NCBI GenBank assembly: GCA_944388965.1
Contig: CALXKL010000014.1
Span: 1-36,180, forward strand
Length of the DNA: 36,180 bases
From: an uncultured Spirochaetales bacterium
GTDB taxonomy: Bacteria > Spirochaetota > Spirochaetia > Sphaerochaetales > Sphaerochaetaceae
Direction of reading: 5' to 3'
Shown: positions 1,838 through 20,536 of the stretch, piece by piece
How the letters are laid out: every line of letters begins with the position of its first letter
Position numbering within the stretch: the first letter of the stretch is position 1
Translations under genes and position numbers: made by a program
The notes under the pieces: model-generated
The model's database searches: none
The model's input: only the letters and a program-made list of their open reading frames with translations
What the model was told of the DNA's origin: nothing

Positions 1838-3145
1838 ATGTTGCGCATTTCCACCTTCAGACGTGGTGGTGTCCATCCTCATGACAGGAAGGAGCTGTCG
1901 AAGAACTCTCCGATAGAGGTTCTTCCGATGCCCTCGTCCCTCGTCGTGCCGATGTCTCAGCACCTTGGTGCTCCGGCCAGGCTGGTCAAGGCCAAGGGCG
2001 ATGTCGTGCAGCGCGGCGAGATGATCGGGCAGGCGAGCTCGTTCGTCAGTGCGGATGTGCATTCCCCTGTCTCCGGTACGATCACGGAAGTGACACGGAT
2101 CCGACTGGCCAACGGCGCCTCCTGCGAGGCGGTCGTCATCAGACCGGACGAGATACAGGGCGAGATGTTCACCGTACGCCATGATTGGAAGAGCGAGGAC
2201 CCGAAAGCTCTTCTCGACACAATAAGACGCATGGGCATCGTCGGAATGGGCGGAGCCACCTTCCCCGCGCATGTGAAGTTCGCCATTCCGGAGGGGCGGA
2301 AGGTCGAGGCCCTGGTCGTCAACGGAGTCGAGTGCGAGCCTTATCTGACAAGCGACTACCGCTCGATGATGGAGAGGGCGGACGAGACGCTCGAGGGCAT
2401 CATGATCCTCTCCCGCATCCTTTCTCCTGCCAGGATCGTCATCGGGATCGAGGCCAACAAGATGGATGCGGCCAGGCTGCTGGACGACAGGGCCAGGGAG
2501 CATGGCTATCCCATCGAGGTCCAGCCGCTGAAGATGAAGTACCCCCAGGGAGATGAGAAGCAGCTCATCAAGGCCACCACAGGTCGCGAGGTGCCATCGG
2601 GCAAGCTTCCGATCGATGTGGGGGCCGTCGTATGCAACATCGGCACGGCCTATGCGATATACGAGGCATGCGTGTTCCACAAGCCGTTGATCGAGCGTGT
2701 GGTGACCGTCTCCGGAGAGGGCATCGCCCATCCAAGGAACATTCTCGCTCCGATCGGTGCAAAGGCTGGCGACCTGATCGCCTTTGCCGGAGGCTACAGC
2801 CGCGATGACGTGGACAGACTGGTCAGCGGAGGACCGATGATGGGCTTCTCGTTCGCCGACGAGGATGCACCTGTCACGAAGGGCACCAGTGGAATACTCG
2901 CCCTCGTCGACGAGCCTGTCGAGACCGGAGTATGCGTCTCGTGCGGCAAGTGCGTCAGCCATTGTCCCATGGGACTGATGCCGAACAGGATGTTCCGCAA
3001 CATAAAATATGGAAACTACCAGGCGGCGCTCGACATGGGGCTTCTCGACTGCAAGGAGTGCGGTTGCTGCGCATTCATCTGTCCGGCACATCTGCCTCTG
3101 GTGCAGGGTTTCAAGCTGGGCAAGAAGATGGGAAGGAGGAAGTAG
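1838..3145 (+). CDS. rnfC: Rnf complex subunit RnfC
   Basis: RnfC is the peripheral, cytoplasm-facing flavoprotein/iron-sulfur subunit of the ion-pumping ferredoxin:NAD+ oxidoreductase and is thought to be where NAD(H) reacts. The 435-residue length fits the family. A biotinyl-like N-terminal region (about 30-90) is followed by a Complex I 51-kDa-like nucleotide/FMN region with GMGGATFPAHVK and VNGVECEPYLTSDYR. Two [4Fe-4S] motifs close the protein (Cys366, 369, 372, 376 and Cys405, 408, 411, 415). It is the first gene of the C-D-G-E-A-B operon, the order seen in Clostridia, Thermotogae and spirochaetes. One nucleotide separates it from rnfD. Confidence 0.96.
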   Translation: MLRISTFRRGGVHPHDRKELSKNSPIEVLPMPSSLVVPMSQHLGAPARLVKAKGDVVQRGEMIGQASSFVSADVHSPVSGTITEVTRIRLANGASCEAVVIRPDEIQGEMFTVRHDWKSEDPKALLDTIRRMGIVGMGGATFPAHVKFAIPEGRKVEALVVNGVECEPYLTSDYRSMMERADETLEGIMILSRILSPARIVIGIEANKMDAARLLDDRAREHGYPIEVQPLKMKYPQGDEKQLIKATTGREVPSGKLPIDVGAVVCNIGTAYAIYEACVFHKPLIERVVTVSGEGIAHPRNILAPIGAKAGDLIAFAGGYSRDDVDRLVSGGPMMGFSFADEDAPVTKGTSGILALVDEPVETGVCVSCGKCVSHCPMGLMPNRMFRNIKYGNYQAALDMGLLDCKECGCCAFICPAHLPLVQGFKLGKKMGRRK

Positions 3146-3146
3146 G

Positions 3147-4211
3147 ATGAAGATAGTATCCGCAAGTCCTCATGTCCACACGACGATGGACATAAGAAGG
3201 AGCATGCTTTTCGTCATCATCGCATTGCTGCCTTCCTGCCTGTGGGGCGTGTATGCATTCGGACTCAGGGCTCTTGTAGTGCTTCTGGTCTCTGTCGCAT
3301 CGGCCCTGCTGTCCGAGTACCTGCTCGGTCTTATTGACAAGAAGAACACGTTGCCGGACCTTTCGGCGACGGTCACGGGGCTGCTGATCGGCATGAACAT
3401 GCCGCCTGCGATTCCGCTGTACATCCCTGTGATCGCCTCCTTCTTCGCGATATTCGTGGTCAAATGGACATTCGGAGGCCTTGGGTGTAACTGGATGAAC
3501 CCGGCCCTTGCGGGAAGAGTCTTCGTGTTCTTCTCGTTCTCGTCCGCCATGAGCACGTTCAGCGCACCACGGGCGCTGGCCGCAGATGCTCTTGCATCCG
3601 CCACTCCTCTGTCCGCCGTCAAGACGGCGATATCAGGAGGGATGCAGAATCTCGACTACCAGGGGGTGATGGACCAGCTTGGATACGGCACGACGTCGAT
3701 TGCCCAGAGCATCGGAGGAGCGCTGGGTATCTCCCCGTATACGGTCGATGCGTTCCTAGGCAACGTCGGCGGCTGTATCGGCGAGGTCTCCGCACTGCTT
3801 CTGCTCGTCGGCGGCATCTTCCTGATCGCGACGAAGGTCATCACCTGGCACATTCCCGTCGTCTATCTGGGGTCGTTCGCACTGCTGTCCTGGGTCTTCG
3901 GCGGAATCCGTTCCGGCATGGGCCTGTTCAGCGGTGAGGTCCTCATGCCGCTCTTCACGGGCGGCCTGATGCTCGGTGCGTTCTTCATGGCCACCGACTG
4001 GGTGACGACGCCCACGACGAAGAAGGGCGAGGTGATATTCGCCATAGGCTGCGGATTCTTCACCTTCCTGATCCGCTATTTCGGCTCTCTTGCCGAAGGC
4101 GTATCCCTGGCGATCATACTGATGAACATCCTCACGCCGACGATCGACAGATACGTCAGGCCGAGGAGATTCGGCTATGTGAAGCCGGTCAAGGAGGCGA
4201 AGAAGAAATGA
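3147..4211 (+). CDS. rnfD: Rnf complex subunit RnfD
   Basis: This 354-residue polytopic membrane protein belongs to the NqrB/RnfD family. It carries covalently bound FMN and forms part of the membrane ion and electron path. The predicted flavinylation site is Thr153 in ALASATPLS, slightly degenerate from the usual SGAT. Aromatic-poor hydrophobic helices fill the protein, and GCNWMNPALAGR is a family signature. The start at 3147 follows GGAAGGAGG and begins MKIVSASPHVH, as expected; longer in-frame versions overlap rnfC heavily. Its stop overlaps the rnfG start (ATGA), which suggests translational coupling. Confidence 0.95.
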   Translation: MKIVSASPHVHTTMDIRRSMLFVIIALLPSCLWGVYAFGLRALVVLLVSVASALLSEYLLGLIDKKNTLPDLSATVTGLLIGMNMPPAIPLYIPVIASFFAIFVVKWTFGGLGCNWMNPALAGRVFVFFSFSSAMSTFSAPRALAADALASATPLSAVKTAISGGMQNLDYQGVMDQLGYGTTSIAQSIGGALGISPYTVDAFLGNVGGCIGEVSALLLLVGGIFLIATKVITWHIPVVYLGSFALLSWVFGGIRSGMGLFSGEVLMPLFTGGLMLGAFFMATDWVTTPTTKKGEVIFAIGCGFFTFLIRYFGSLAEGVSLAIILMNILTPTIDRYVRPRRFGYVKPVKEAKKK

Positions 4212-4756
4212 GACAGTATCTGAAGGTTGCATTCATCCTCTTCGCGATCTGCGCAGTGGCCACGATTCTGCTGGCCGCGATCAACCAGATCACCGCACCG
4301 TATATCGCATACAACACCGAGCAGACCACTATAGCGACGCTTGCTGCGGTATCCGGAGGCTATGAGCAGGGAGAGCAGAGGAGTTCAGACGCCGATGGCG
4401 TCAACTACGTGGTCCCGCTGCTAGACGATGACGGTTCGCTCGTCGGATATATCCTCGAGCTGTCAACGACCGGCTACGGCGGTGAGATCGTCATGGCCAC
4501 CAGCTACTACACGGACGGAAGCGTCCTCTCGAGCAAGGTGATGAGCGACGACGAGACGCCAGGACTCGGCAAGAACGCCGAGGAGAGCTGGTACATGGAG
4601 ATGTTCGTCGGACTGGGCGGCGACGATCCGCTTCCGGCAAGCAAGAACGACCTTGCCGACCCGTCTGCGGTCTCCGGTGCATCCGTGACCTTCAACGGCG
4701 TCAGTTCCGCCATCAGGGCTGGAAGCGAGTATGTCAAGACTCTGGGAGGCAGATGA
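4208..4756 (+). CDS. rnfG: Rnf complex subunit RnfG
   Basis: RnfG is the membrane-anchored, extracytoplasmic flavoprotein that relays electrons through covalent FMN. The 182-residue protein has one N-terminal transmembrane helix (about 7-29) and an FMN-binding domain (PF04205). GYGGEIVM and ETPGLG (about 116-121) are typical of the domain. The flavinylation motif reads SGAS at 156-159 instead of SGAT, so the predicted acceptor is Ser159 rather than Thr. The flavin transferase ApbE needed for this step is not encoded in the window. The gene starts inside the rnfD stop codon and ends one nucleotide before rnfE. Confidence 0.95.
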   Translation: MRQYLKVAFILFAICAVATILLAAINQITAPYIAYNTEQTTIATLAAVSGGYEQGEQRSSDADGVNYVVPLLDDDGSLVGYILELSTTGYGGEIVMATSYYTDGSVLSSKVMSDDETPGLGKNAEESWYMEMFVGLGGDDPLPASKNDLADPSAVSGASVTFNGVSSAIRAGSEYVKTLGGR

Positions 4757-4757
4757 T

Positions 4758-5399
4758 ATGTCGCACATGAACGAGCTTACGAAGGGAATCTTCAAGGAGA
4801 ACCCCACATTCATAATCATGCTGGGCATGTGCCCGACGCTGGGTGTCACCACCCAGGTGTTCAACGCATTCGGAATGGGCGCAAGCGTCCTGTTCGTGCT
4901 GCTGGGCTCCAACATCTTCATCTCGGCGTTGAGGAAGATCATACCGGACTCCATCAGAATCCCGGCGTACATCGTCGTCATCGCGTCGTTCGTCACCATC
5001 GTCGAGATGGTGCTGCACGCCTTCGTTCCGGCTGTGTTCAATGCTCTGGGCGTCTATCTTCCGCTGATAGTCGTCAACTGCATCATCCTCGGCCGCGCCG
5101 AGGCCTTTGCGAACAAGAACACAGTGCTTGACAGCGCACTCGATGCGATCGGCATGGGCATAGGCTTCACTCTGGCACTCAGCCTCATCGCAGCCATCAG
5201 GGAGATCTTCGGCGCCGGCACGATCACGCTGTTCAACCTCAGCGAGACCCAGCGTCTGGTGATCACGCTGCCTGGAATCAGCGAGAGCCCGGTGCGGGTC
5301 CTGACGCTGGCCGCAGGAGCGCTGCTCGTGATGGGCTACCTCAAGGCGTTCTTCATATGGAACGGCGAGAGAAGGGCCGCCAAGGGAGGTCAGGCATGA
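4758..5399 (+). CDS. rnfE: Rnf complex subunit RnfE
   Basis: This 213-residue integral membrane protein of the RnfA/RnfE/NqrD/NqrE family has six predicted helices. RnfE and RnfA form the central membrane pair that holds an iron-sulfur centre and the ion path. Family signatures are NPTFIIMLGMCPTLGVTT near the N-terminus and PLIVVNCIILGRAEAFA in the middle; the cysteines within CPTLG and NCIILG are the expected ligands. I chose the ATG at 4758 because GGGAGG lies 8 nt upstream and it follows the rnfG stop directly. Its stop overlaps the rnfA start (ATGA). Confidence 0.95.
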   Translation: MSHMNELTKGIFKENPTFIIMLGMCPTLGVTTQVFNAFGMGASVLFVLLGSNIFISALRKIIPDSIRIPAYIVVIASFVTIVEMVLHAFVPAVFNALGVYLPLIVVNCIILGRAEAFANKNTVLDSALDAIGMGIGFTLALSLIAAIREIFGAGTITLFNLSETQRLVITLPGISESPVRVLTLAAGALLVMGYLKAFFIWNGERRAAKGGQA

Positions 5400-5989
5400 G
5401 CTACATCGGAATAATCATCACATATGTGTTCATCCAGAACTTCATCCTGGTGCAGTTCATGGGACTGTGCCCGTTCATCGGAGTCTCGAAGAACAGCGAG
5501 AGCGCCATCGGCATGGGCATGGCAGTCACCTTCGTCACCGCCGTCGCCAGTGTCGTATGCTACGCCGTGTACACATATCTGCTGGTCCCGTTCGACCTGA
5601 CATACCTGCAGACGATCTCCTTCATCCTCGTCATCGCGGCGCTCGTGCAGATGGTCGAGATGGTCATCAGGAAGATGAGCCCGTCATTGTACAAGGCACT
5701 GGGCATCTTCCTGCCGCTGATCACCACGAACTGCGCGGTGCTCGGCATCGCAATCATAAACATAGACGAGGGCTACAACATGCTCGAGAGCTTCCTCGCG
5801 GGACTCGCCGCAGGACTCGGCTTCACCCTTGCCATCGTGCTCATGAGCAATATCCGCGAGAAGCTCGAGATGACTCCTGTCCGCAGAGTGTTCAAAGGAG
5901 TTCCGATCGCGTTCATCAGCGCCGGCCTGATGGCTCTGGCGTTCATGGCCTTCGACAGCAGTCTGCTGACGAATCTGCATCTCGTATGA
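5396..5989 (+). CDS. rnfA: Rnf complex subunit RnfA
   Basis: RnfA, 197 residues, is the paralogous partner of RnfE with inverted topology. NFILVQFMGLCPFIGVSK and PLITTNCAVLGIAIIN are the matching signatures, again with one cysteine each (CPFIG and NCAVLG) for the intramembrane cluster. The start at 5396 is set by the GGGAGGT site and by the ATGA overlap with rnfE. A 13-nt gap containing GAGGA leads to rnfB. Confidence 0.95.
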   Translation: MSYIGIIITYVFIQNFILVQFMGLCPFIGVSKNSESAIGMGMAVTFVTAVASVVCYAVYTYLLVPFDLTYLQTISFILVIAALVQMVEMVIRKMSPSLYKALGIFLPLITTNCAVLGIAIINIDEGYNMLESFLAGLAAGLGFTLAIVLMSNIREKLEMTPVRRVFKGVPIAFISAGLMALAFMAFDSSLLTNLHLV

Positions 5990-6002
5990 GGAGGATCGAA
6001 CT

Positions 6003-6803
6003 ATGTTGACAGCGATACTTTCAGCGTTTCTCGTCATTGCCGGCATGGGACTGGTCCTCGGACTCGGACTTGCCATCGCCGATAGGAAGCTTGCCGTGGT
6101 CAAGGACGAGAAGCTCGTCCAGCTCGAGGAGATCATGCCGGGCGCCAACTGCGGCGGCTGCGGTTTTGCAGGGTGTAGCGCCTATGCCGAAGCCGTCTTC
6201 AAGGGAGAGGCCGAGATCGGACACTGTGCCCCCGGTGGAGCGGCTCTCGCCGAGAAGATGGGTCAGATCATGGGCCTGAGCGTGGACGTCAGCCAGGAGA
6301 AGATGGTCGCCTATGTCCACTGTCGTGGAAACGTCGACGTGACCGGACAGGAATTCACATACAAAGGGATGGACGACTGCAATGCCGCCTATCTGCTCCA
6401 GGCCGGGCCGAACGCATGCAAGGAAGGGTGTCTGCATCTTGGCTCCTGCATGAAGGTCTGCCCTGCCCAGGCGATCCATCGCGACGAGAAGGGATTCATC
6501 GTCGTGGATCCTGGAAAGTGCATAGGATGCAGGAAGTGCACCACAGTCTGTCCGACAGGCGTGATCAGGATGATTCCGGCAAGTGCGACGCACGTGGTCG
6601 CATGCAGCAACCATGAACCGGGCGGCAAGGTCCGTAAGGAATGTAAAGTCGGCTGCATCGGCTGCAGGATATGCGAGACGCGCTTCCCCTCATCCGGATG
6701 CCATGTCGTGGACTTCCTCTCCTCGATAGACTACGACGGTGTACATGACCAGATTGCGGATGCTGCACAGGCCTGCCCGCAGAAGTGCATAGTAGAGCGC
6801 TGA
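6003..6803 (+). CDS. rnfB: Rnf complex subunit RnfB, with a reduced C-terminal ferredoxin domain
   Basis: RnfB is the ferredoxin-accepting iron-sulfur subunit. The 266-residue protein has one N-terminal membrane helix (about 3-25), a [4Fe-4S] domain (Cys50, 53, 58, 75) and a first ferredoxin-like pair (Cys139, 143, 149, 153; Cys173, 176, 179, 183). The C-terminal domain keeps Cys218, 221, 224 and 258, the four ligands of one cluster. The four ligands of its partner are missing: the Cys expected at 228 is Phe, and no CxxCxxC follows SIDYDG. The reading frame is open and ends with the usual CP...CIVER, so this looks like evolved loss and not a frameshift. Confidence 0.94.
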   Translation: MLTAILSAFLVIAGMGLVLGLGLAIADRKLAVVKDEKLVQLEEIMPGANCGGCGFAGCSAYAEAVFKGEAEIGHCAPGGAALAEKMGQIMGLSVDVSQEKMVAYVHCRGNVDVTGQEFTYKGMDDCNAAYLLQAGPNACKEGCLHLGSCMKVCPAQAIHRDEKGFIVVDPGKCIGCRKCTTVCPTGVIRMIPASATHVVACSNHEPGGKVRKECKVGCIGCRICETRFPSSGCHVVDFLSSIDYDGVHDQIADAAQACPQKCIVER

Positions 6804-6814
6804 GGAGCTGAACC

Positions 6815-8644
6815 TTGAAGTTCGTTCTGGGCTTGTATACACAGCTTTCGCACAACGCACCCACGCCGGTCCTGGCGAGGGTGCTCTCGTGCATATTCAA
6901 GCCCGTGCTCACGTATATCCACGACAACCGCGACTGCAGGGTCTCGATCGCCCAGGGCAGCGCGATGACGAGCCACCTCTCGTGGCATTTCCCAGAAATC
7001 AACCTGCTGCTGTCTTCTCTGGCGAAGAGCGGTTCCATAGAGCTCGTGACCAGCGCGTACAACAACACCGTGCTCCCGCTCGTGCCTCACAAGGACCGCT
7101 CAAGCGCTGTGGACCGGACGACGACGCTGATCCGCAAGACATATGGCGTCAGGGCGACGAGCCTGTGGTGCTATGGCCAGATCTGGGCCCCCAGCCTGAT
7201 CGCGATGATGAAGACGGTCTCCCTGGACCGGATAGTCATATCCTCATATGATGCACTGACCCAGAAGGCCTCACGCATCAGCTCTTTCCGCATGAACGAG
7301 CTCGGCCGCAGGATAGATGTGATACAGTCCGACGACCGCTTTTCACGTCTTGTGAGCTCCTATGCCCAGAACGAAATCACGCTCACCGAACTCCGTTTCG
7401 CCCTGGTGGAGCATGTCAGGACGTCCAGATGCGATGACGACATGGTGTGCATGATCAATCTCGACCAGTTGTGCCAGGGCGCCAGCTACAACCGGGAGGA
7501 CGATGAAATGCTATACACCGTCTTCACGGATCTGCTCAACGTCGCCAGGGAGTGCGGCTATACGCTCTCTCTTCTTCGCGACATCCAGCCGCGCAAGGTG
7601 GGCTATCTGCCATCCGGCTGGTATGGACGGGACGCCTATGCAGGCATTCTGGGGTCGTTCAACGAGCTCTTCGTGCGCTGTGAGGACTACAGGTATTTCC
7701 TCGGCCGCTATCTTTCTCTCGGATCGTTCGTTGACGATTCCCGCAAGGACCGGGTGCTGCGCAGGCGTCTGCAGGACATGCTCTCGACACTGCCTTCCGG
7801 CAATCTCTTCCTTTGCGACACGCATGCATCGTGCCTTTCGCTGTCAGAGCACAGACAGTTCTTCCGCACCGTGATCGAGGCGGAGGCGAGCCTGGCGGAG
7901 AACGGGCTGAGACAGGTGAGCGCGGACGTCGACGACGACGGCATCGAAGAGGAGTTCTGCTACGGCAAGACCAACACCGCCCTGCTTTCGCATGTCGGCG
8001 GATCCGTGTACGAGTTCAATTCGCGTGAGCTCGGCGTCAACATCTTCGATACCATCTGCCCATGGCAGAAGGCCTTTCCCGACCAGAGCCGGAGAAGAAG
8101 CTTCTGCGACAGCTATGAAGTCGACGGACAGACGTACGACCTGTCCCGCTGCATCTATTCGCTGGACAGCGTCAACAGGGCGCGCAACGAGTTCGTCTTC
8201 TCCTTCGAGGACGACGTGATGCCGTTCTCGGTCAGCAAGCACTACAGACTGGCCAACCAGAACCTGTACATGTCGCACACGATCGTGAACCGCAGCGACA
8301 GGATGCTGGACGTCGGCTATGTCACGAGCGTCTACTTCACGCTTCCGGATGCCAGCGCCTTCGCCTACGACGCACACAGGGCGCCGCTTGTCGGACAGTC
8401 CCTCTCCGGCATAAGGAATGTGCGCTTCAACGACTCCTCGCGCTCGATGCAGCTATCGTTCACCAGCACCGACGAGTTCTCCGTCCAGGAGGAGAACCGC
8501 TACCAGAGCGAAGTGACCACCCTTGGCTCTCAGCAGTTTTATCTCTATACTAGGGTCAGGTTGCGTTTCAGCCTCCATGTGGCACCGCAGAGTGCCTCAA
8601 GCCTCAACATAGTGACCCGTATCGCGAGCACGAAGGAGAAATAG
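6815..8644 (+). CDS. GH57/4-alpha-glucanotransferase-like protein lacking the catalytic nucleophile
   Basis: The 609-residue protein aligns by eye with GH57 4-alpha-glucanotransferases: an N-terminal (beta/alpha)7 domain (about 1-330) and a C-terminal beta-sandwich of the DUF1925/DUF1926 type (about 370-605). The family hallmarks are altered. HNHQP becomes YTQLS (8-12). The WLTERVW block, whose Glu is the nucleophile, becomes WCYGQIW (118-124), with Gly121 in the Glu position. In the HDDGEKFG block only one Asp (about Asp217) and the last Gly remain. It probably does not hydrolyse or transfer glucans; a carbohydrate-binding or regulatory role is a guess. It starts with TTG after GAGGAG, 11 nt after rnfB, and is probably in the same transcript. 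Confidence 0.75.
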   Translation: MKFVLGLYTQLSHNAPTPVLARVLSCIFKPVLTYIHDNRDCRVSIAQGSAMTSHLSWHFPEINLLLSSLAKSGSIELVTSAYNNTVLPLVPHKDRSSAVDRTTTLIRKTYGVRATSLWCYGQIWAPSLIAMMKTVSLDRIVISSYDALTQKASRISSFRMNELGRRIDVIQSDDRFSRLVSSYAQNEITLTELRFALVEHVRTSRCDDDMVCMINLDQLCQGASYNREDDEMLYTVFTDLLNVARECGYTLSLLRDIQPRKVGYLPSGWYGRDAYAGILGSFNELFVRCEDYRYFLGRYLSLGSFVDDSRKDRVLRRRLQDMLSTLPSGNLFLCDTHASCLSLSEHRQFFRTVIEAEASLAENGLRQVSADVDDDGIEEEFCYGKTNTALLSHVGGSVYEFNSRELGVNIFDTICPWQKAFPDQSRRRSFCDSYEVDGQTYDLSRCIYSLDSVNRARNEFVFSFEDDVMPFSVSKHYRLANQNLYMSHTIVNRSDRMLDVGYVTSVYFTLPDASAFAYDAHRAPLVGQSLSGIRNVRFNDSSRSMQLSFTSTDEFSVQEENRYQSEVTTLGSQQFYLYTRVRLRFSLHVAPQSASSLNIVTRIASTKEK

Positions 8645-9743
<1,099 letters not shown>

Positions 9744-20434: not shown

Positions 20435-20447
20435 TCGACACTGTCAT

Positions 20448-20531
20448 GGCCGCATGGCGGAATTGGTAGACGCAGTAGACTCAAAATCTGCCGGCAGCAA
20501 TGCCATATCGGTTCGATCCCGATTGCGGCTA
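20448..20531 (+). tRNA. tRNA-Leu (anticodon CAA)
   Basis: A class II tRNA with a long variable arm. The acceptor stem is GGCCGCA (20448-20454) with TGCGGCT (20524-20530). The anticodon stem GTAGA/TCTGC encloses the loop CTCAAAA, giving CAA, which reads UUG. The T arm is ATCGG-TTCGATC-CCGAT, the discriminator is A20531, and CCA is not encoded. Confidence 0.93.
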
Positions 20532-20536
20532 TCAAG

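Follow-up and report, generated by a model that had tools for sequence, protein, structure and literature searches.

A one-cluster form of the third ferredoxin module of RnfB is widespread among spirochaetes

The window examined here, which is the whole 36,180-nucleotide stretch of contig CALXKL010000014.1 from an uncultured Spirochaetales bacterium of the Sphaerochaetaceae (assembly GCA_944388965.1), encodes an RnfB protein whose third ferredoxin module (FdIII) contains the ligands of one [4Fe-4S] cluster, and this one-cluster FdIII is a trait of the genus, the family, and most of the families read in the phylum Spirochaetota. The one-cluster RnfB is a stable, widespread, and probably old variant of a known subunit and not the fluke of one genome. 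From the ligand sets, their conservation, the predicted fold, and the distribution described below, we infer an account that as a whole we hold to be very probable: FdIII is a one-cluster module that would have lost its outermost cluster, the two-cluster form would be ancestral, and the change would be old.

Reading of open reading frames together with profile matches revealed a complete rnfCDGEAB operon on the forward strand (positions 1838-6803). The rnfC gene (1838-3145; TIGR01945) encodes an FMN domain and a complete two-cluster ferredoxin domain, and is followed by rnfD (3147-4211; TIGR01946; open from 3009, start at 3147 inferred), rnfG (4208-4756; PF04205, with TIGR01947 at 80.1 bits, under its cut-off of 102), rnfE (4758-5399; TIGR01948; open from 4731, start at 4758 inferred), rnfA (5396-5989; TIGR01943; open from 5357, start at 5396 inferred), and, as the last gene, rnfB (6003-6803), which encodes 266 residues. 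Besides being encoded together with rnfC, D, G, E, and A, this protein was identified as RnfB by the PF04060 FeS domain (48.6 bits against a cut-off of 23), by TIGR01944 (87.2 bits, above the cut-off of 68.7), by an N-terminal transmembrane helix at residues 2-29 of the structural model, and by matches to the solved RnfB structures 7zc6_B (E 3.6e-55) and 9eri_B (E 4.9e-47); narrower equivalog models matched strongly yet under their cut-offs (NF005503, 192 against 252). In the same genome, the POR_N domain typical of 2-oxoacid:ferredoxin oxidoreductases occurs in one protein and the large-subunit domain of [FeFe]-hydrogenases in three, which makes ferredoxin chemistry likely in this organism. 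RnfB would serve as the subunit that oxidises ferredoxin within a complete Rnf pump. Downstream of rnfB lies an open reading frame (6815-8644) with a modest match to glycosyl hydrolase family 57 (PF03065, 40 bits), followed by a gene at 8645-9743 that we take to be prfB, encoding release factor 2; an in-frame CTT TGA C occurs at 8711-8717, 22 codons past the ATG and directly after GGAGG, and the gene then continues in another frame, which is a classic programmed frameshift. The window also contains tRNA-Arg (TCT) at 421-499 and tRNA-Leu (CAA) at 20447-20533. FlaA (PF04620) was present in 78 of 80 genomes sampled from the phylum and in none of 14 controls, which supports the assignment of the phylum to Spirochaetota. 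It is absent from the window's own genome, an absence that would fit a non-flagellated, Sphaerochaeta-like spirochaete.

RnfB contains 22 cysteines, 16 of which belong to FdI, to FdII with its neighbours, and to a linker pair, while four form the FdIII set and two are extra. Alignment, together with PF04060 for the flexible FdI domain, places the FdI ligands at C50, C53, C58, and C75 (6150-6227) and, further along, C107, C126, and the FdII cysteines C139, C143, C149, C153, C173, C176, C179, and C183 (6321-6551). The linker cysteines C201 and C214 (6603-6644) follow from the assignment in the accessible part of PMC9588780 and from an internal repeat, and are predicted to bind, jointly with two upstream cysteines, the linker cluster known as RnfB-4 in C. 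tetanomorphum. Positions 6642-6803 encode residues 214-266 and the stop codon in an intact frame. Within FdIII, one complete ligand set is formed by C218, C221, and C224 (6654-6674) with C258 (6774-6776), so that exactly one [4Fe-4S] set is present with its fourth cysteine in the second half of the module. Phenylalanine occupies residue 228 (6684-6686), the place of the fourth cysteine of the first motif; relatives have F, S, V, Y, A, T, D, or H at this place, which indicates that no conserved ligand resides there. No second CxxCxxC occurs within residues 229-257, and FdIII does not have the two CxxCxxCxxxC motifs of the six-cluster C. tetanomorphum type, such that this RnfB probably carries five [4Fe-4S] clusters as opposed to six. 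The residue numbers that the original prediction gave for the four cysteines and for Phe228 are exact, and the second motif is absent as it stated. Beyond what it described, two further cysteines, C233 (6699-6701) and C262 (6786-6788), lie inside the module, and the C201/C214 pair just upstream belongs to the separate linker cluster.

The predicted structure is consistent with an intact module. An AlphaFold2 model of RnfB (pLDDT 93.4, pTM 0.79) features a helix at residues 251-257 (6753-6773), where the two-cluster form has its second CxxCxxC loop. Residues 97-266 of the model superimposed on 7zc6_B by VIA-align with a Z of 23.5 and 1.5 A over 168 residues at 38% identity, and the model superimposed on A. 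woodii RnfB with a Z of 24.6 and 6.7 A over 264 residues, a deviation that probably reflects the mobile FdI domain. With an open reading frame of 266 codons and this fold, the earlier statement that a complete ligand set is absent while the frame is intact holds. When isolated FdIII was searched in Pfam, the only matches were Fer4_13 (19.5 bits against 24.5) and Fer4_15 (7.6 against 22.4), single-cluster families whose curated cut-offs it does not reach and to which it therefore bears a likeness only. A profile search with FdIII returned the two solved RnfBs first; the further matches include D. africanus ferredoxin I, with T. maritima ferredoxin lower; the match extends to the fourth ligand in both ferredoxins and ends before it in PsaC. 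Both of these ferredoxins are one-cluster proteins, in which a helix stands where two-cluster forms have the second ligand loop. Convergence of FdIII on a one-cluster ferredoxin architecture is therefore probable.

The pattern recurs far beyond the window. Among the nearest relatives, 145 of 150 genomes gave a match, and 130 RnfB loci from 128 genomes were read after 17 genomes with fragments, weak ferredoxin matches, or near-copies were left out; 109 of these loci were one-cluster, 18 two-cluster, and three unassigned at that stage. In a phylum-wide sample, the FdIII profile matched 241 of 392 genomes, and 60 further loci were read. A script initially sorted all rows into 144 two-cluster, 143 one-cluster, 11 odd, and one incomplete, and inspection by eye reassigned three odd rows to the one-cluster class (L048, L052, L077) and seven to the two-cluster class (L266, L267, L269, L274, L304, L328, L333). 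In these seven, the second FdIII motif is a wider C-x3-C-x4-C-x3-C instead of CxxCxxCxxxC. Two rows were left unclassed: L064, which is cut short, and L120, whose second motif is without its middle cysteine. The latter may have a three-cysteine cluster, and the same genome (G117) also has a one-cluster locus (L124).

The original prediction proposed comparing RnfB from spirochaetes with RnfB from Clostridia, and in this comparison, which spans the two phyla Spirochaetota and Bacillota, 145 of 190 spirochaete loci, from 187 genomes, are one-cluster, with 43 two-cluster and two unclassed, while 108 of 109 RnfBs from Bacillota and Clostridia are two-cluster. All 80 Clostridia loci are two-cluster in a sample biased by its selection for likeness to a two-cluster query; two of them (L185, L190) were missed by the pattern of the script and have both motifs by eye. 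The 29 Bacillota loci are a fairer sample, comprising nine of the ten best scorers against a one-cluster profile and 20 spread over the remainder of the 206 matching genomes, and 28 of them are two-cluster, with one exception (L324 in genome G840). These counts also bear on the concern that the pattern was produced by an error in sequencing or assembly, or by displacement of the second motif. The same pattern occurs in an RnfB that is 92% identical from another genome of the genus (L004 in G002) and in 109 of the 130 nearest loci, and the stretch between residues 229 and 257 is devoid of CxxCxxC, so both of the ways in which the original prediction might have failed are refuted.

We also evaluated how strictly the module is conserved. 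Each of C218, C221, C224, and C258 is cysteine in 146 of 146 one-cluster RnfBs, as the original prediction of a retained set would have it, and the same is true of all 16 cluster cysteines from C107 to C258, which are likewise cysteine in 151 of 151 two-cluster rows. The FdI ligands are each cysteine in 142-144 of 146 one-cluster rows, where gaps in two or three rows per column account for most of the exceptions, and in all 151 two-cluster rows. Column 254, which corresponds to the third cysteine of the second motif, is alanine in 118 of 146 one-cluster rows, and this bias, together with the invariance of the ligands, indicates that the one-cluster pattern is not chance. Column 228 varies freely, with cysteine in a single one-cluster row (L077) that itself has no second CxxCxxC; this row and L120 are the rare intermediates. 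At core column 233, isoleucine, valine, leucine, or methionine is found in 150 of 151 two-cluster rows, and phenylalanine or tyrosine in 72 of 146 one-cluster rows versus one of 151 two-cluster rows, which suggests that the aromatic residues fill the cavity left by cluster II. The change in FdIII may accordingly be pictured as the conversion of the module into a one-cluster ferredoxin in which cluster I (C218, C221, C224, C258) is kept and a short helix with bulkier packing would take the place of cluster II, whose ligands are at position 228 and in the second CxxCxxC.

Cysteine itself occupies column 233 in 45 of the 146 one-cluster rows. We considered C233 and C262 as new ligands or a disulphide that generally replaces the cluster and rejected this possibility, as 101 of the 146 rows lack C233. 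C262 accompanies C233 more often than expected, in 38 of 45 one-cluster rows, compared with 51 of 101 rows without C233 (Fisher p 9e-5, uncorrected for kinship). The net charge of columns 225-257, the docking face, averages -2.2 among one-cluster rows and -0.8 among two-cluster rows in a comparison made with no control for kinship.

That FdIII is decaying, with its last cluster on the way out, is very unlikely. Such degeneration would fit the freedom of column 228 and the observation that FdIII is under weaker constraint than FdI and FdII and evolves faster in most comparisons. However, the invariance of all four retained ligands across rows from many families, with no broken retained set among the 146, largely refutes it, and the confident fold and the packing substitutions at column 233 argue in the same direction. 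So does the dN/dS of FdIII, which was 0.09-0.28 against three relatives in the genus, rough values given that dS is near saturation (a fourth relative was saturated); the region appears to be under purifying selection. The original prediction had read the pattern as selective simplification, and of this reading the absence of a complete set and the purifying selection stand, whereas a loss by this RnfB alone does not, the trait being shared through the genus, the family, and most of the families read in the phylum.

Which of the two clusters is missing determines what the change would mean for electron transfer. In C. tetanomorphum, according to the accessible text of PMC9588780, segments 91-140 and 190-214 each contribute two cysteines to the linker cluster RnfB-4, FdIII holds two clusters, and RnfB-6, the most distant from the membrane, is put forward as the site at which electrons from ferredoxin enter, to pass on to 5, 4, 3, 2, and 1. 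Our reading of that description is that RnfB-5 and RnfB-6 are the two FdIII clusters. In all 146 one-cluster and all 151 two-cluster rows, linker residue C214 stands four residues ahead of C218, and the arrangement C201-x12-C214-x3-C218 mirrors C126-x12-C139-x3-C143 with small variation. This adjacency and the repeated spacing suggest that the first-motif clusters of FdII and FdIII flank the linker cluster, which in turn would place the second-motif clusters at the two ends of the arc. Sequence adjacency and the published order point to the outermost cluster, which is RnfB-6 in C. tetanomorphum, as the one most likely lost, and this suggests a chain that is shorter by its first step and not interrupted. 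Electrons would enter one hop further in, at RnfB-5, and then proceed 5-4-3-2-1 to the membrane as usual. The alternative, in which the kept ligands bind the outer cluster and the linker-side cluster was lost, would open a gap near 20 A in the wire and render FdIII vestigial or regulatory. It draws on the fact that the cluster order inside FdIII is derived from adjacency and from the published order, but the constant position of C214 in all 297 rows opposes it, and invariant retained ligands would be unexpected for an unwired cluster; we therefore regard it as quite unlikely. With the outermost cluster as the one that was lost, the wire would probably run over five clusters instead of six, shortened and not cut. 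The original prediction that the electron wire changes is thereby upheld in a milder form than it implied.

A further observation concerns modules beyond FdIII. Extra C-terminal modules are found in none of 146 one-cluster rows versus seven of 151 two-cluster rows (p 0.015, uncorrected), a difference that loss of the outer cluster would account for. Every one of the seven carriers belongs to Bacillota, however, and kinship explains the difference equally, such that we give it no weight.

We also investigated the origin of the one-cluster form. A free tree of 202 rows calculated without the FdIII columns required five state changes, of which strong branches force at least two, and a 93-row tree likewise required five. 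In an AU test on the 93 rows without FdIII, a set that omits the divergent one-cluster rows L130, L280, L285, L290, and L300 and both unclassed rows, placing the one-cluster rows in a single clade was not rejected (p 0.59), which suggests that there may have been one old origin, or else more than one. On an unrooted tree this outcome fits gain as well as loss, and the second cluster could thus have been gained by a one-cluster ancestor, as grouping the one-cluster rows in one clade carries no likelihood penalty. We consider such a gain unlikely. The fourth ligand of the kept cluster sits in the second half of the repeat, which is the arrangement of a two-cluster module; FdII, which is part of the same protein, keeps its full complement of eight cysteines in 297 of 297 rows; and the two-cluster form is present in Clostridia and, judging by the number of motifs, in Methanosarcina. 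With the two-cluster form as the putative ancestor, the change would be old in the phylum, possibly of single origin, and kept since, apart from being overwritten at times by operons of clostridial type.

Candidates for such overwriting are found in the window's own family, where genera g8 (in part), g9, and g19 carry two-cluster RnfBs. RnfC, D, E, A, and B of one g8 operon (L110) are 54-90% identical to those of three Clostridia loci, as compared with 36-58% identity to native operons of the same genus. In the g8 and g19 genomes tested, the genes adjoining the two-cluster rnfB are also of clostridial type, with RnfC, D, E, and A compared. The whole rnf operon is clostridial-type in some genomes of these two genera (L110, L111, L113, L115) and native in other g8 genomes (L043, L054). 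Each of 15 genomes from g8, g9, and g19, five of them at least 90% complete, has one full-length FdIII, and one has an extra partial match, which suggests that in these genera the native operon was displaced by the clostridial one as opposed to being supplemented by it. More tentatively, and with less than even confidence, spirochaete Rnf may constitute a separate electrical class with a one-cluster docking face and entry at cluster 5, fixed early and matched to its own ferredoxins, while some relatives would have exchanged the whole pump for one of clostridial origin, in which the outer cluster is present.

Should much of a phylum indeed manage without the outer cluster, then the pump as such does not need it, and its dispensability, if true, narrows its role to docking, capacity, or tuning. 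The swap of pumps among relatives, if true, is a natural exchange experiment on the purpose of the entry cluster, and close relatives with either form make the role of the outer cluster testable by gene exchange.

The variation in RnfB described so far is of a different kind. In the accessible parts of the respective papers, the size of RnfB differs with the number of fused modules (PMC9588780), and its C-terminal domain holds two to seven clusters, varying by whole ferredoxin modules (PMC12174285), whereas here a single cluster inside a module has changed. Spirochaetes are among the groups tabulated in a survey of Rnf and Nqr (PMC4014512, as far as its text was available), and the portions of the open-access literature consulted yielded no description of a one-cluster FdIII or of a spirochaete RnfB. 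C. tetanomorphum RnfB (PDB 7zc6, PMC9588780) has the same order of transmembrane helix, FdI, FdII, linker cluster, and FdIII, but its FdIII binds the two clusters RnfB-5 and RnfB-6, for six in all, as opposed to one here and a predicted five in all. A. woodii RnfB (PDB 9eri, PMC11889175) shares the modules up to FdIII, and ferredoxin is described as docking at its membrane-distal end; it differs in a two-cluster FdIII and a further C-terminal two-cluster module, for a total of eight clusters. Azotobacter vinelandii RnfB (8ahx) has FdI and the FdII-like module as here, but its 174-residue chain stops before FdIII, and the three clusters listed for it in the available text of PMC12174285 indicate that Rnf works with fewer. 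Three CX2CX2CX3CP motifs are reported for M. acetivorans RnfB in the part of PMC4023990 that was accessible, a count that fits the two-cluster form. Finally, the single-cluster ferredoxins, including D. africanus ferredoxin I, T. maritima ferredoxin, Fer4_13, and Fer4_15, resemble FdIII in having CxxCxxC and a distant CP cysteine, but they are small free proteins, whereas FdIII is the fused terminal module of a polyferredoxin.
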